Assembly (NCBI GenBank): GCA_003290465.1
Contig: CP030759.1
Coordinates: forward strand, 2,492,572-2,556,571
Direction: 5' to 3'
From: Candidatus Sumerlaea chitinivorans
GTDB taxonomy: Bacteria; Sumerlaeota; Sumerlaeia; Sumerlaeales; Sumerlaeaceae
DNA: 64,000 nucleotides
In this document: positions 8,616 through 16,836 of the stretch, in pieces
Layout: each line of letters begins with the position of its first letter
How positions within the stretch are numbered: the stretch's first letter is position 1
The notes under the pieces: generated by a model
The model's input: the letters and a program-made list of their open reading frames with translations, nothing else
Told to the model about the DNA's origin: nothing
Database searches by the model: none
Position numbers and translations under genes: made by a program

Positions 8616-10343
8616 TTATTTTTCGTCCTCGCGAATGGCGACCGCAACTTGCTGCGCGAGCGGTGCGACCGTCGCCTCGTCAAAAGCGAAGCGTGAACCC
8701 GCTGTTTCAAATAGCTCAGGCAGAGGCCGCGCCCCGCCGAGCCTCAGAGCACTCCGGTAGCCTTCAATCGCCTGCTCGCGCTGGCCTCGGAAGCGCTCCC
8801 AAAGCTGCAGAGCACCGATCTGGGCAATCGCATATTCGATGTAGTAGAGCGGCACGCAAAAGAAGTGGAGTTTGCCGATCCACGAACACTCGCGCCATTC
8901 AGGCAGTTCGCTCCATTCGAGTTCGTCGCCAAAACGTCTCTCGAGCTCGAGCCACATCGCCGCACGCTCCTGCCGCGTGTGTTTAGGATTTCGGTAAAGC
9001 CAATGTTGGAAAGCATCCACGCGGGCAATCCACGGCAGAATCTCGAGCACTTCCTCCAAGTGCATTGTTCGTGCCCTCTGGGCATCTTCCGGCGAGTAGA
9101 AAACGCTCAAACACTCGCACGCCATCATCTCCATGCCCATGGAAGCCACTTCGCAGAACTCGATTGGCGCGTGGCGATAGGCCAGCAGGGGCTCTGTGCG
9201 TGTGGCGAGCGCATGAAACGCATGCCCGCCCTCATGAAGCAAGGTGAACACATCGCGGTTTCGCCCGGCCGCATTCATGAAAATGAAGGGCAGTCGCACC
9301 TCATCAAGTGTGGATTGGTACCCGCCGGGGGCTTTCCCCTTGCGGCTGTCGAGATCGAGAAGCCCCCGCTCTCGCAGAATATCAAATTCCTCGGCAAAAC
9401 GTGGGTCGACCGCCGCAAACACGGCACGCACGCCACTCACCAACTGCTCCACCCCCTCGAAGGGGCGCAGGGGGGGACGCCCCAGCGGGTCCACAGCAAG
9501 ATCCCACGGAGCCAGCCGCGCCAGCCCCAATTGCTGTCGGCGACGCTCACGCATTGCCCGCACCAGCGGCACCACCGTGCGCTCGATCGTAGCATGCAGC
9601 GCCTCGCAATCCGCAGGCGTGTAGTCGAATCGCCCCAGATTGCGAAACTGATACTCCAAGAAATTCTCAAAGCCCGCATTGTGCGCGATCTGCGTCCGAA
9701 GCGCGATCATCTCGTCGAAGAGCGACTCGATCTCCTCGCGATCCCGAAGTTGCCGGGCCGTCGCCGCACACCACGCATCGCGCCGCACCCCCCGATCCGT
9801 CTCTTCCAAGTAACGGCTTAGCTGCGGCAGCGTCTGCTCTCGCCCCTGAAACTCCGCCGTCATTTCCCCATAAATCTTTTGGTACCGCTGCGAAAGCTTT
9901 TCGTCCTCGGTTTTGAGCGCCACATTTTCTTCGCGAAACAACTCCACCTCGTTTCGCCGCGCGCGATCGTACACAAAGTAGCGCTCGGGGGGCAGCTCGC
10001 TACGCGCCGGCGCTGCCACATAGTAACGGTTCAGCGCAAACCGCGCCCGCTCGACTTCCGGCAACACGTGCTCGACGTAGTGCAAGTAGGCCGCCTCACA
10101 TGCCAGATCGTCGGTATGGCACGTCATACGGATGTAGCGCACTGCAGCTTCTTCCTCGATTGCCGCCAGCAACTCAGACTGATCCAAAAGCCACCGCTCA
10201 AGCTCTGCCACCGAGTCGAGCGAGCGCTTGAGAAGGGCTTCGAAGTACGGAGCTATCGTTTCCCATTGCCCCAGATCCGCATCCTCGGGCAAGAAACTTC
10301 GCTGAAATTCGCGCTCTTTACGCAGCTTGTCGAACTGATCCAA
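8616..10343 (-). CDS. M3-family oligoendopeptidase-like metallopeptidase
   Basis: This 575-aa protein resembles oligoendopeptidase F and related M3 peptidases, which are cytoplasmic zinc enzymes that cut oligopeptides. The zinc-binding HExxH is present as LLHEGGHAFH at about residue 370, followed by EFCEVASMGME, which supplies the third ligand Glu. The long helical N-terminal half is typical. The start was taken as TTG at 10343 because a clear AAAGGAGA lies six bases ahead. An ATG 66 bases further upstream has no such site. The 3' end lies 5 bases from the tRNA on the opposite strand. The native substrate is unknown. Confidence 0.85.
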   Translation of the reverse strand: MDQFDKLRKEREFQRSFLPEDADLGQWETIAPYFEALLKRSLDSVAELERWLLDQSELLAAIEEEAAVRYIRMTCHTDDLACEAAYLHYVEHVLPEVERARFALNRYYVAAPARSELPPERYFVYDRARRNEVELFREENVALKTEDEKLSQRYQKIYGEMTAEFQGREQTLPQLSRYLEETDRGVRRDAWCAATARQLRDREEIESLFDEMIALRTQIAHNAGFENFLEYQFRNLGRFDYTPADCEALHATIERTVVPLVRAMRERRRQQLGLARLAPWDLAVDPLGRPPLRPFEGVEQLVSGVRAVFAAVDPRFAEEFDILRERGLLDLDSRKGKAPGGYQSTLDEVRLPFIFMNAAGRNRDVFTLLHEGGHAFHALATRTEPLLAYRHAPIEFCEVASMGMEMMACECLSVFYSPEDAQRARTMHLEEVLEILPWIARVDAFQHWLYRNPKHTRQERAAMWLELERRFGDELEWSELPEWRECSWIGKLHFFCVPLYYIEYAIAQIGALQLWERFRGQREQAIEGYRSALRLGGARPLPELFETAGSRFAFDEATVAPLAQQVAVAIREDEK

Positions 10344-10449
10344 TGATGCTCTCCTTTCGCGAATCGATTTGCAGTAGGGTTGTCGCGTCCATCTCTCGCC
10401 CCCTGCCATGCGGGAGACTCAGCGGGTCGTCGCGACACAAACTCTTGTT

Positions 10450-11976
10450 TTACTCATAAACGCGCACGCTCGCATTTGTGAGCGCGGCCGCACGATTCCC
10501 CGGCTCACCAATCAAGTTAAATCCAAGAAACGAAACGGAGGTTTTTGATTTCTTCGAATCCTCATCCATATCAAATTCGATTCGGGTCGTTTCCGCTGGC
10601 GCGATCGCCCGAAACTTGATCGTGGCAATCACTCCGCTCGACGGAATCGCCGTGCGTGAGCCAAACCCCATTTCGTATACAACCTCTCCTGCCCCATTGT
10701 ACGCGACATTGCGAATATGGAAGTCGAACGGCAGATCCTCGTGATAATCCCCGTCGAAGATATTGATCCCTTTCGTGATCCAGTTGTTCTCGTCGTAGTC
10801 TACCACTTGGAGCACCTTCGGATCGAACTTCACTTTGAAGCGGATCGAATCAATTTCCACCCCCTGCGGGTTTGCATACGTGACGTCCACAAGGAAGTCC
10901 TCACCTACGCGGACCTCACGCACGCGCGGCCGCAACGCCATCGTGACGTGCCCCTCGGCCGTCCCCTCGCTCAGCATCCGCGCCATGCTTACGGCACTCA
11001 CCGGCAAATCGCGCTCGCTAAGTTCCTCCGCCGTCGCCGCGTCAGGCGTGATCGTAACGTCCATCCCCAAGAGCCCCGCCCGCTCCGATGCCTCTACCTC
11101 GTCGTTTTCGCTTCGCTTCTGAAGAACATTGATCTCCTTGCTCATCACGCGCGACGCGAACGCCTCGTTATTCACGAAATCAATCCGCGAGTACTCCGTC
11201 GGTGCCAGCGCTTCCCATTCCAGTCGGAACAATACCAGCATCTCATCCTTCCGCGGTTCGGCAAAGCGAGCGCGATAGACAATCAGCCCCCTCTTTGCAT
11301 CATATTGAGCAGTTGCTGGTTCAGCCAAAAGACCGCTCAATCCCTCATCATCCAGCCCCACCGGTCGCACGACCGACGGATCGTATTTGATCGCCAATTC
11401 CACCGCATCAAACGTCGAGCGCTTGCCATTGCGGAACACCACCCGCGTGACGAAATGTTTTCCCTGCTCAACAACCACGTGCATGGTAGGGGCTACATCC
11501 AGCGCCTCGATAAATAAAACGTTGGCACTGGCGTCCGCCTGCATCTTGAACTCGACAGTGGTCGCCCCGCGCCCAGTGCCCCCCGTTGCCGCCTTCTTCG
11601 CCGGCTGCTTGCCCTTAACGGTTTTTGCTTCCTTCGGAGCTGCTTTTGCTCCCGCAGCTCCCGGCTGATTGCTTGCTTTTGCCCGTGTCTTATCGCGCTG
11701 CTGGTCCGCCCGTTGCTTGTCGCGGTCCGTCTGCTGATTCTTGTTCGTCCCAGTTTTTGACCTCGAGCCGAAGATGCTGCGCCCGCTATTGATTCCTAAT
11801 CCAGAGTCGTATGAGCCACTGCCAACGGACGAACTTCGTCGCGAGCCAGTCCGAGTCCGCCCTGTGTCCCCCGCTTGGTCGGACGCTGCCATGCCCAATC
11901 CACCCACCAAGAGAATCAAACCGATCAGCGCCGCACCGACGAATCCTCGCCCTTGTACAAACCGCTTCAATGTCAT
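10450..11976 (-). CDS. Secreted protein with two cohesin-like domains
   Basis: This 508-aa protein has an N-terminal hydrophobic segment (about residues 12-32, signal or anchor). A low-complexity region rich in Ser, Arg, Lys and Ala follows. Two beta-sandwich modules of cohesin-like pattern lie at about 140-275 and 340-505. The second shows the usual run 'VRVGEDFLVDVTYAN...KVKFDPKVLQV...GEVVYEMGFG...GVIATIKFRA'. In cellulosomes, cohesins bind dockerins, but many bacteria have cohesin-like domains with other roles. No dockerin is seen in this window. The ATG at 11976 was chosen since it places the hydrophobic segment at the N-terminus. Its partner and function are unknown. Confidence 0.75.
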   Translation of the reverse strand: MTLKRFVQGRGFVGAALIGLILLVGGLGMAASDQAGDTGRTRTGSRRSSSVGSGSYDSGLGINSGRSIFGSRSKTGTNKNQQTDRDKQRADQQRDKTRAKASNQPGAAGAKAAPKEAKTVKGKQPAKKAATGGTGRGATTVEFKMQADASANVLFIEALDVAPTMHVVVEQGKHFVTRVVFRNGKRSTFDAVELAIKYDPSVVRPVGLDDEGLSGLLAEPATAQYDAKRGLIVYRARFAEPRKDEMLVLFRLEWEALAPTEYSRIDFVNNEAFASRVMSKEINVLQKRSENDEVEASERAGLLGMDVTITPDAATAEELSERDLPVSAVSMARMLSEGTAEGHVTMALRPRVREVRVGEDFLVDVTYANPQGVEIDSIRFKVKFDPKVLQVVDYDENNWITKGINIFDGDYHEDLPFDFHIRNVAYNGAGEVVYEMGFGSRTAIPSSGVIATIKFRAIAPAETTRIEFDMDEDSKKSKTSVSFLGFNLIGEPGNRAAALTNASVRVYE

Positions 11977-12309
11977 AGTAATGTTATCCTCTTCCACACC
12001 TGAATTTTGCTTGCAAGCATCGAACATGCCACTATCATCACCAAGCAAATCGACTATGTTGTCTGGTGAGGACAGGGGTTTGTCATCGCTTTAGTTCGGA
12101 GGTTGTACGATCCTCGGTCCCTGAGAACTTAGACTGTTAACCTGGGAATGGATGCAAGGGCAAGTGAGAGGGAGTATTCATCTTCTCACAAAGCCCGAGT
12201 ACCTAAGGCTTCAAGCAACGGGGATTCGGAATTTGTCTTATACTTAGAGTAGCGTAGAAGTGGTGAAACGGACAACATCGCGTTGCATCTTGGTGTGGGA
12301 GACATTCGG
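11977..12309. other. Divergent intergenic region
   Basis: 333 bases separate the divergent cohesin-like and CofG-like genes, with no coding signal. A -10-like TATACT lies at 12239-12244 facing the CofG-like gene, but no convincing -35 goes with it. A GGGAG run lies 9-13 bases ahead of the ATG at 12310. Confidence 0.35.
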
Positions 12310-13344
12310 ATGAAGGTAGTCAGCTATGTGCCTACCTATCGCGTCGTGCTCACGCGCCGTTGTGCGTACGCATGCGGCTATTGTGATTTTACAAATCGAC
12401 CTTCTCCGACCCCTCCATCCCTGAAGACATTGCGGGCCCAGCTTGGCCTCGCCCAGAAGCTCGGCGTTCGTCAGGTCACCCTCACAGCCGGCGAAGGCAT
12501 TGCCGAGCTACCAGAAATCGTCAGTGTTTGCCGTTACTATGGCTATGCTTCGTGGGCCGAATATCTGAAAGCCGTCCTGCGCACAATCCTAAAGCATCCG
12601 AATGGCCGGCCCGTTATCCCCGTTCTCGAAGTGGGCAGCCTTCCTTTTGTCGAGCTTCAACAAATGCGCCAGTATCTGCCCGCCGTCCGCTTTCTCTTGC
12701 ATGCGGCGGACGACGCGCTCCAGTACCGCGTTGCACACATGCACGCCCCCCACAAGGCCCTTGGGCCGCGCATGGAGATGCTTGAGAAATTGGGCAAACT
12801 CAATATCCCCACAATCACGGGGCTCACCATAGGCATTGGCGAATCCCGGGAGAGCTGGGCGAGGGCAGCCGCCGTAGTGAACGCCCTCCACGAGCGGTAC
12901 CATCACATCCTCCAGTTTGTACTCATCCCCTTTCATCCCGCTCGCCGCAGCCGCATGGAAAACTATCCCCCTGTTGCGGATGAAACCTTCCTCGACGCAT
13001 GTCGGGAAGTCCGCCGTGTTCTTGCCCCTTCCATTCACCTTTCCGCGGAAATCGAGCAGCGTTTGCCCTTGGTCGCCGACCTTGTGCGGGAGGGCATCAC
13101 CGATCTCGGCGAAATCCGTTTGGGCGAAACCGATTCCATCCATGTTGATCTCCCCGCAACACTCGAGGCGCTGCGCGCCGAACTTCGCCCCGCCGGCATC
13201 CGCTTGCGCGAGCGCTCCACACTCTCGAATGGGATCCTGCGCAAAGGCATCCTCCCGCGGCCCGTCGCGACGGCTGTCGAACGCCAGCGGAACTATCGCC
13301 CCCCTATCATCTCGCAGGGCCACGAATCCTCGGCCATCTCATGA
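12310..13344 (+). CDS. CofG-like radical SAM enzyme
   Basis: This 344-aa radical SAM protein binds a [4Fe-4S] cluster through C18-x3-C22-x2-C25 (RRCAYACGYC). The rest of the chain follows CofG, one subunit of the synthase of the F420 precursor FO: 'YYGYASWAEYL', 'LNIPTITGLTIGIGESRESW', 'RYHHILQFVLIPFHP' and a final 'GITDLGEIRLGE' region. CofG normally acts with CofH, for which there is no gene here. No other F420 gene is in the window. It may therefore work with a distant CofH or catalyse a related reaction. The start at 12310 has GGGAG upstream; a TTG at 12283 is possible. Confidence 0.7.
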   Translation: MKVVSYVPTYRVVLTRRCAYACGYCDFTNRPSPTPPSLKTLRAQLGLAQKLGVRQVTLTAGEGIAELPEIVSVCRYYGYASWAEYLKAVLRTILKHPNGRPVIPVLEVGSLPFVELQQMRQYLPAVRFLLHAADDALQYRVAHMHAPHKALGPRMEMLEKLGKLNIPTITGLTIGIGESRESWARAAAVVNALHERYHHILQFVLIPFHPARRSRMENYPPVADETFLDACREVRRVLAPSIHLSAEIEQRLPLVADLVREGITDLGEIRLGETDSIHVDLPATLEALRAELRPAGIRLRERSTLSNGILRKGILPRPVATAVERQRNYRPPIISQGHESSAIS

Positions 13345-14890: not shown

Positions 14891-15067
14891 GCTAAGCGTT
14901 ACCCTACCGCTTCGCCCCCTCTTCAGTGCAACCCGTAAATCGCTCCGTAACGAACCGTTTACCCCCACGCTCGTACTGGACTGGCATCCTCTCGCCCGCG
15001 AGATGAACCCTGCTCGCTTTGCGTTCCGCGAGGGCCGGTTCCGTTGTCCGTGCAGGTCTTTGGGGGA

Positions 15068-15105
15068 GTTAAAGATCTCACGCGAAGAACGCGAAGACGC
15101 GAAGG
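15068..15105 (+). repeat. Composite repeat, unit 1
   Basis: GTTAAAGATCTCACGCGAAG followed by AACGCGAAGACGCGAAGG. It is almost identical over 38 bases to unit 2 at 15227-15264. Its core CGCGAAGAACGCGAAG is the reverse complement of the core of units 3 and 4. Confidence 0.85.
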
Positions 15106-15206
15106 CTTCTTCACCTCCGTGTGGGTCTATTAAGAAAGGGGGGTCTCAAGGGGTGGGGCGTAGGGGACCCAGATTACCTTCACCAGTCAATGGTACCTCG
15201 CGTGGC

Positions 15207-15264
15207 TCCACGCGCGTGGAAAGGAAGTTGAAGATCTCACGCGAAGAACGCGAAGGCGCGAAGG
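15207..15264 (+). repeat. Composite repeat, unit 2 with palindrome
   Basis: A perfect 14-base palindrome TCCACGCGCGTGGA (15207-15220) is followed six bases later by the repeat body (15227-15264). The body shares AGATCTCACGCGAAGAACGC and the following bases with unit 1. Confidence 0.85.
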
Positions 15265-15309
15265 CGAAAGGGCAAAAAAGCAAAAAGATTTCTGACGCAC
15301 GTGTAAAGG

Positions 15310-15358
15310 GTGAACCTTCGCGTTCTTTGCAGCTTCGCGTGCGGAGCCCGCTTTTCCG
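15310..15358 (-). repeat. Composite repeat, unit 3
   Basis: The 49 bases starting GTGAACCTTCGCGTTCTTTG differ from unit 4 at only three positions. The core is inverted relative to units 1 and 2. A decayed palindrome (GACGCACGTGT) precedes it where unit 4 has an intact one. Confidence 0.85.
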
Positions 15359-15683
15359 GCCTGGCGTGGTAGCCTCTTTTTTTCTGACTTTGCGGAAACT
15401 CTCTGTGAACGCATGAAACCCTCCCGAGAAAGCCAAAGCGCACCTCGTCGCACTCATGGATTGCGAGTAAGCCCCCGCACGATTTACTTTTCCTGTTGCC
15501 GACAGCCCGCCGCGGGTCTCGTCCGGACGGCGGGTAGCAAAGATGGTTCAAGCCAGGTGCACTCGATCGGGCACAGTTTTCGTTGACTTGCGATGCTGAA
15601 TGCTCATCGACTCGTCCCATAATAAAGACGGGGACGCAATTCAGGCGAAATGGTCGCAACCCCGCATAAAACCGCAGTGTCTT

Positions 15684-15750
15684 CCCCACGCGCGTGGGGG
15701 TGAACCTTCGCGTTCTTCGCGGCTTCGCGTGCGGAGCGCGCTTTTCCGTC
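15684..15750 (-). repeat. Composite repeat, unit 4 with palindrome
   Basis: The perfect 16-base palindrome CCCCACGCGCGTGGGG (15684-15699) abuts the 49-base body at 15700-15748 (GTGAACCTTCGCGTTCTTCG...), which is 46/49 identical to unit 3. Confidence 0.85.
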
Positions 15751-15805
15751 TTCGCGTGCAAACCTCTCTTCCACTTCCTTCCCCAAGCGCATCGCACACA
15801 CGCCA

Positions 15806-15843
15806 AAAAAAAACCGGGCGGTAAGCAGGGTCGCTTACCGCCC
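15806..15843 (-). terminator. Intrinsic terminator behind the cysteine-rich genes
   Basis: On the minus strand GGGCGGTAAGC pairs perfectly (11 bp) with GCTTACCGCCC around a six-base loop (stem 15816-15826 and 15833-15843). A GG and then a run of nine T follow (15805-15813 on the plus strand are A). This is a textbook Rho-independent terminator, about 180 bases after the metallothionein-like gene. Confidence 0.88.
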
Positions 15844-16026
15844 GTTCAGGTAGCGTAAATCAGTTATCGAGTCCCTTGCTTCGCGTGCTGCGATTCGTTT
15901 TCCAAGGTCACCGCGCCGAGGGCTCGAGTGCGCACTTGCAAGGGGGGCGTTGACTATCGGCCACCATCCTTGCAACCCGGCCCGCAACGCGCATTCCTTG
16001 GCTACGCGGGCACGCTGGGCAAGCGC

Positions 16027-16194
16027 TCAGTGCTTACAGGTGCAGTCGCCGCCCTTCGTGCAGGGGCACTTGCAGCTTTCACCGCACTTATGCTTCGTCT
16101 TCGTGGTCTGGCAGTCACCAGCCTGCGTCATTGCGGCAAACACCGGGACACTGAGAATCGAAGCAAGGGCAAGGGTAAGGGCAAACTTCTTCAT
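16027..16194 (-). CDS. Small secreted cysteine-rich (metallothionein-like) protein
   Basis: This 55-aa protein starts at an ATG with AAGGAGAT six bases ahead, so translation is well supported. A signal peptide (MKKFALTLALASILSVPVFA) leaves a mature chain of about 35 residues. That chain has seven cysteines in a C..C..CxCxC..CxC pattern, plus several Lys and two or three His. The spacing resembles metallothioneins, but it is exported, and it is not a family I can name. It probably binds a metal such as copper or zinc outside the cytoplasm. It lies behind another cysteine-rich gene on the same strand and ahead of a strong terminator. Confidence 0.75.
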   Translation of the reverse strand: MKKFALTLALASILSVPVFAAMTQAGDCQTTKTKHKCGESCKCPCTKGGDCTCKH

Positions 16195-16401
16195 CGTTCT
16201 ATCTCCTTCGTGATTTGAACTTCGTTGTTGAACATCATTAAAGCCATCTGCGGACGTGGTCGCTGATCCGCGTGTGCGCTTTGCAGGCCTTGCACCCACG
16301 AACAAGAGGGGTGTGCTCTGAATCTAGCGGGCACTTCGCACCCAACTTCTTGCCGGCACCACACCCGCCTACCGGCGCGGCGCTTACACGTGCCCACCTT
16401 C

Positions 16402-16836
16402 TCAATTCCTCAGCACGCAGACCACAAGGTGAAGCCTCACTGTGGAGGGCGTGTGCACCCATGCGACCAAGTCGCGCTCAACCACCCGTATCGCCCGATT
16501 TCCTGCCCACACGGCTAATGCGGGCACAACTTCCGAGCGTCGGCCGTCGCCAGAGCCAACGACTGGTCGCTCCCACGTGACCGGCAATTGCTTCTCACTC
16601 GACGAGGCATGACAGCACGCTGGTGAACACAACTCCGGACACGCTAAGGAAGGGAGAGGGAATTCGCAGCACTCGCAGCACGGCATCTCGCGGGACGCGG
16701 AAGCCGCTGGAGTCTCCGTCGCACACGCGTTGGGATTCGCGCCGGTTTCGCACGCAACAGCCCCGTTTGCGAAAACCCACTGCAGAAGGCCCACGATCGC
16801 AGCGAGCTTATTGATGCTTAGCCAGCGCATCGTCAT
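16402..16836 (-). CDS. Putative secreted cysteine-rich protein
   Basis: This 144-aa protein has a hydrophobic N-terminus (about residues 8-27) ending ANGAVA before a Cys, consistent with a signal peptide. Ten cysteines fall in the next ~60 residues, several as CC pairs (PCCECCEF, SPACCHAS). The last half has no cysteine cluster and ends VVCVLRN. I recognise no family; DUF2946-type small metal-related proteins are a loose comparison. It is upstream of and co-directional with the small cysteine-rich gene (207 bases apart). No strong ribosome binding site is seen, so the call is moderate. Confidence 0.5.
   Translation of the reverse strand: MTMRWLSINKLAAIVGLLQWVFANGAVACETGANPNACATETPAASASREMPCCECCEFPLPSLACPELCSPACCHASSSEKQLPVTWERPVVGSGDGRRSEVVPALAVWAGNRAIRVVERDLVAWVHTPSTVRLHLVVCVLRN

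Follow-up and report, generated by a model that had tools for sequence, protein, structure and literature searches.

Two cysteine-rich frames in an intergenic stretch

An intergenic stretch of about 2 kb in the chromosome of 'Candidatus Sumerlaea chitinivorans' BY40, an organism from a 2-km-deep aquifer at 45 °C in Western Siberia (PMC8092238), harbours two minus-strand frames that are unusually rich in cysteine, and the question is whether either or both of them encode an exported metal buffer, as the initial annotation of this DNA proposed for the two together. The genome is a single contig of 3,289,105 bases, of which we analysed bases 2,492,572–2,556,571 (64,000 bases, referred to here as the window; positions are those of the window unless another locus is named). 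The features on which the analysis turns are as follows.

15815–15844, minus strand: intrinsic terminator hairpin with a 13-bp stem and a T9 tail (hairpin search and folding energy)
16027–16194, minus strand: gene for a 55-residue exported cysteine-rich peptide, predicted to be metallothionein-like, with seven cysteines (open frame, ATG, AAGGAG, signal-like N-terminus, neighbour-like codon use, one remote relative)
16030–16134, minus strand: predicted mature part of about 35 residues with all seven cysteines (putative cleavage site VFA|AM, from the sequence)
16203–16208, minus strand: ribosome-binding site AAGGAG of the 55-residue gene (sequence upstream of the ATG)
16402–16836, minus strand: 144-residue frame with a hydrophobic N-terminus and ten cysteines in 50 residues (open frame and cysteine cluster; roughly as likely as not to be a gene)

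The frames are flanked on one side by genes for a CofG-like radical SAM protein and for hisD, and on the other by genes for a D-hydantoinase (dihydropyrimidinase) and a GHL10 glycosyl hydrolase-like protein. As had been remarked earlier, there is no metal transporter or metal regulator gene among the annotated neighbours. Scans of the region against Rfam and for tRNAs gave no matches, and promoter scans found no sigma-70-type site. The CofG-like protein (12283–13344) scored 135.6 bits and, since this lies below the F420 CofG cut-off of 213.35, it is probably a diverged relative of that enzyme. The intergenic stretch also contains repeats: at 15064–15770, after hisD, a CGCGAAGAACGCGAAGG-type sequence recurs in direct and inverted orientation; its 73-nt copies are 86% alike and its inverted arms are perfect over 17 nt. 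This looks like a dispersed intergenic repeat.

The 55-residue frame looks like a real gene

The smaller frame runs from an ATG at 16194 to a TGA stop codon at 16027–16029, the longest in-frame version opening at a TTG at 16305. The ATG is preceded by GAAGGAGATAGAACG, with AAGGAG 8 nt upstream. The N-terminus, MKKFALTLALASILSVPVFA, has the composition of a typical Sec signal sequence and no twin-arginine motif; all seven cysteines fall within residues 28–53, in the mature part ...DCQTTKTKHKCGESCKCPCTKGGDCTCKH, in keeping with the signal peptide and the seven closely spaced cysteines first described for this frame. In the mature peptide, which contains no aromatic residue, the cysteines follow the pattern C-G-x2-C-x-C-P-C-x2-G-x2-C-x-C, with three CxC motifs. 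A structure model of the peptide gave no helix, at low confidence, and no confident fold.

Synonymous codon use of the gene (0.127) is inside the range of the genes in the window (0.03–0.17). The overall codon score is below that of the neighbours, and the mature part taken by itself scores below zero (-0.19); a low score is to be expected because of the odd, Cys/Lys-rich composition, and it gives no positive support either. In simulated sequence of local composition, an open reading frame of 45–90 residues with at least seven cysteines in 30 residues arose in 0.9% of trials, a figure that counts the cysteine cluster alone, without signal peptide or ribosome site, and that, like the one for the larger frame below, is post hoc, the region having been chosen for its cysteines. 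Short cysteine-rich frames that also open with a signal-like sequence are uncommon: one other in the window passes the filter, and it lies antisense to a long gene. The terminator, which has a 4-nt loop and a folding energy of -25.9 kcal/mol (z = -5.9), has its stem 182 bases downstream of the stop codon, in keeping with the textbook terminator reported previously at 180 bases, and the gene, which ends in this strong terminator, probably forms a short transcription unit by itself. Taken on its sequence features, the 55-residue frame looks real.

The 144-residue frame and the supposed pair

For the larger frame, the open frame and the CC pairs (three) that had been described are present, while its cysteines number 11 in all and not ten; ten of them lie within a 50-residue stretch. 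An open reading frame of at least 144 residues with ten cysteines in 50 residues arose in 0.03% of simulations (about 1 of 3000 trials), which makes chance alone an uneasy account of it. We saw no ribosome site upstream, the codon score (-0.05) is between coding and non-coding values, and a structure model gave no confident fold. Searches with Pfam, NCBIfam, PHROGs and PADLOC profiles found nothing significant; no relative was present in the related Sumerlaeota genomes, and tblastn on plasmids with the full protein and with its C-terminal tail found nothing. The tail was searched separately because it bears a likeness to leader proteins of metal-efflux operons. The odds that the frame is a gene are about even: it may be a second cysteine-rich exported protein or a chance frame, and we have left it out of the mechanism proposed below. 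A third, overlapping minus-strand frame of 74 residues (16238–16462; ...GGCGAGKKLGAKCPLDSEHTPLVRGCKACKAH...) lies between both frames and includes a cysteine-containing, protein-like stretch; it could be a chance frame or a displaced piece.

A likely relative beside a Metal_resist gene

Profile searches of the 55-residue peptide against Pfam, NCBIfam, PHROGs, PADLOC and PDB returned nothing significant. In 40 Sumerlaeota genomes the gene was missing from all seven of the same family, and one relative was found, in a genome (G015) of the same class; since this genome belongs to another family and the seven same-family genomes are without the gene, the gene is an orphan among close relatives. 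The G015 protein is an 89-residue peptide, predicted to be exported, with 11 cysteines. The two peptides are reciprocal best matches (E = 1.2e-3 and 2.8e-4, from two sequences in a 40-genome search), the value being about 0.05 once the 40 genomes are counted, and the alignment of their mature parts scores 74, compared with 41 +/- 7 for shuffled sequences of unchanged composition, of which 2/4000 did as well. From these comparisons the G015 peptide is likely to be a distant relative.

Further searches were negative. For the 55-residue peptide, scanning 84,980 species genomes and viral contigs gave no confirmed relative, tblastn on plasmids found nothing, and a profile built from the two peptides detected no third family member. 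Same-family hydA homologues (three genomes) have different upstream genes, with no gene-like exported cysteine-rich frame among them. Other weak matches to either protein in the phylum were inspected and set aside as chance. Of the checks that had been suggested, the profile searches of both proteins gave no match, the related genomes yielded one remote relative, for the smaller protein only, and the pair itself was found in no related genome. The initial annotation had counted the lack of any homologue with conserved cysteines in related genomes against its own reading; the 55-residue protein narrowly escapes this through its G015 relative, whereas the 144-residue protein has no such homologue in the genomes searched.

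The gene for the G015 peptide stands in the following run.

L052 (G015:C38), 8718–10714, co-oriented: ECF sigma factor, zf-HC2 anti-sigma factor, Metal_resist (PF13801) and 89-residue cysteine-rich peptide genes (profile matches)

The ECF sigma and zf-HC2 genes overlap by four bases, as do the zf-HC2 and Metal_resist genes, and the peptide gene follows 85 bases after the Metal_resist gene (CpxP-like; PF13801, E = 2e-17), so that the run is a probable operon. By analogy, and from one genome, it offers the strongest, if indirect, functional hint for the 55-residue peptide, pointing to metal stress. The host genome has no match to PF13801, and ECF sigma, anti-sigma and Metal_resist genes are absent among the scanned neighbours of the 55-residue gene. 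At Metal_resist loci in other genomes, an adjoining cysteine-rich exported peptide was found nowhere but in G015.

Comparison with known metal-binding peptides

With the bacterial metallothioneins (SmtA/BmtA/PmtA, PF02069, and MymT) the peptide shares short length, richness in cysteine, CxC motifs and a presumed metal-thiolate cluster. It does not belong to PF02069 (Metallothio_Pro), which matched neither the peptide nor anything in the 40 genomes of the phylum but did match the Synechococcus control. To our knowledge the described bacterial metallothioneins are made without a signal peptide, whereas the 55-residue protein has a predicted one. PmtA, made without a signal peptide, is nevertheless located on the cell surface (PMC11237414). 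In broad terms the sequence of the mature part is that of a metallothionein, being short (35 residues) and having seven cysteines, three CxC motifs and no aromatic residues. The 26-residue fungal metallothioneins have no export signal that we know of. The fungal copper-metallothionein pattern is X2-CXC-X5-CXC-X3-CXC-X2-C-X3, and the proteins of Neurospora crassa and Agaricus share with our peptide seven cysteines in about 26 residues and a CxC-x5-CxC core (PMC4755600), but the remaining spacings differ. The likeness is one of pattern only and most likely convergent.

The exported thiol-based metal buffers of which we are aware are either larger Csp bundles or enzyme-modified bufferins. The secreted Csp copper storage proteins (Csp1, gonococcal NGO1701) are exported, cysteine-rich and buffer Cu(I) outside the cytoplasm (PMC12510493), and the role proposed here therefore has precedent. 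Csp proteins, however, are Tat-exported four-helix bundles lined with cysteines, whereas the 55-residue protein has a mature part of 35 residues, no helix in its (low-confidence) model and no twin-arginine motif. Bufferins (DUF2282/BufA, MNIO-modified) are likewise exported cysteine-containing peptides and chelate copper, binding the excess of the metal (PMC12452194). The peptide matched none of the bufferin precursor families, and the host genome has no match to the MNIO family (PF05114).

A scan of species genomes for the cysteine-spacing pattern returned, among the matches listed, mostly low-complexity CGCG repeats and a peptide family found mainly in Streptomyces. Its members (L098, L101, L103–L105, L126, L135 and others, mostly Streptomyces genomes, among the matches listed) are short peptides that end in CGCGSGCGCGCQSGxPCQCGG and have no signal peptide. 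Their CGSGCGCGCQSGxPCQC segment has the identical spacing C-G-x2-C-x-C-x-C-x2-G-x2-C-x-C with both glycines, although it was this pattern that retrieved them, and they would be cytoplasmic, in contrast to the 55-residue protein with its predicted signal peptide. The Streptomyces tail appears metallothionein-like, and its likeness in spacing to our peptide is probably convergent.

Proposed function and alternatives

We favour the reading, with a probability of roughly 0.55, that the 55-residue gene encodes an exported metallothionein-like peptide that buffers metal. The precursor, judged by its typical signal peptide, would be exported by the Sec system, and cleavage would release a mature peptide of about 35 residues with its seven cysteines mostly as CxC pairs. 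These would wrap soft metal ions (Cu(I), Zn, Cd or Ag) in a metal-thiolate cluster, as cytoplasmic metallothioneins do, and the periplasmic or extracellular peptide would bind surplus metal and limit damage. We infer export, metal binding, the identity of the metal and expression or induction alike. The proposal of an extracellular or periplasmic metal buffer is thus retained as the best available reading of the 55-residue peptide, on the strength of the three CxC motifs and of a likely distant relative encoded next to ECF sigma, anti-sigma and Metal_resist genes, and is not supported for the pair.

Thiols outside the cytoplasm can oxidise to disulfides, and a disulfide-bonded role is possible for the peptide. 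A short, cysteine-rich product predicted to enter the periplasm, which favours disulfides, and encoded with no metal gene nearby might be an antimicrobial, signalling or envelope peptide that binds no metal; we consider this rather unlikely, as seven is an odd number of cysteines, three CxC motifs are unusual for such peptides, no immunity, transporter or processing gene was found among the neighbours, and the likely relative in G015 adjoins a Metal_resist gene. An exported cysteine-containing precursor could also belong to a modified-peptide (RiPP) metallophore system of the bufferin kind, but with no MNIO gene in the host genome, no match to a precursor family and no adjoining modifying enzyme this is highly improbable.

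The two remaining alternatives concern the frames themselves. That the two function together, as a pair or an operon for exported metal buffers (the original proposal), would fit their shared strand, the hydrophobic N-terminus and cysteine cluster in each, and the improbability of the larger cluster arising by chance. Against it stand the 207-base gap between the frames, the larger frame's want of a ribosome site, its weak codon score and its lack of relatives, and the absence of the pair from every related genome; with the 144-residue frame not established as a gene, the pair seems to us unlikely. At the other extreme, neither frame would be a gene and both would be chance products of an unusual, repeat-containing intergenic stretch of about 2 kb, as orphan sequences missing from seven same-family genomes might suggest. 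This is very unlikely, given that a ribosome site, a signal peptide and a cysteine cluster (the cluster alone at 0.9% by simulation) coincide in the 55-residue frame, that a strong terminator follows on the same strand and that G015 has a reciprocal relative.

If the metal-buffer reading is right, a plain, unmodified exported metallothionein of 35 residues would be the simplest exported thiol-based metal buffer, would be easily synthesised and tested, and would give a phylum that lacks isolates a metal-defence component. A wider version, in which a new Sec-exported metallothionein family of the Sumerlaeota would play in the periplasm the part that metallothioneins have in the cytoplasm, with some members under an ECF sigma factor, an anti-sigma factor and a periplasmic Metal_resist sensor, and with an unrelated larger cysteine-rich partner in this species, is unlikely; at present there is one orphan gene and one remote relative.

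Elsewhere in the host chromosome there are genes for a CopA-like P-type ATPase and an HMA copper-chaperone-like protein, and soft-metal handling is therefore part of the biology of this organism. At the latter locus (L193, G000:C1 around 369,000, G000 being the host genome; 1198–1440 and 1480–1710), the HMA gene is preceded at 39 bases, on the same strand, by an 80-residue frame (MKRPLLALMFLGFCATGFPHGNKEVCGIPHRHYAGK...) with a signal-like N-terminus, several cysteines and histidine, possibly another exported metal-binding peptide.
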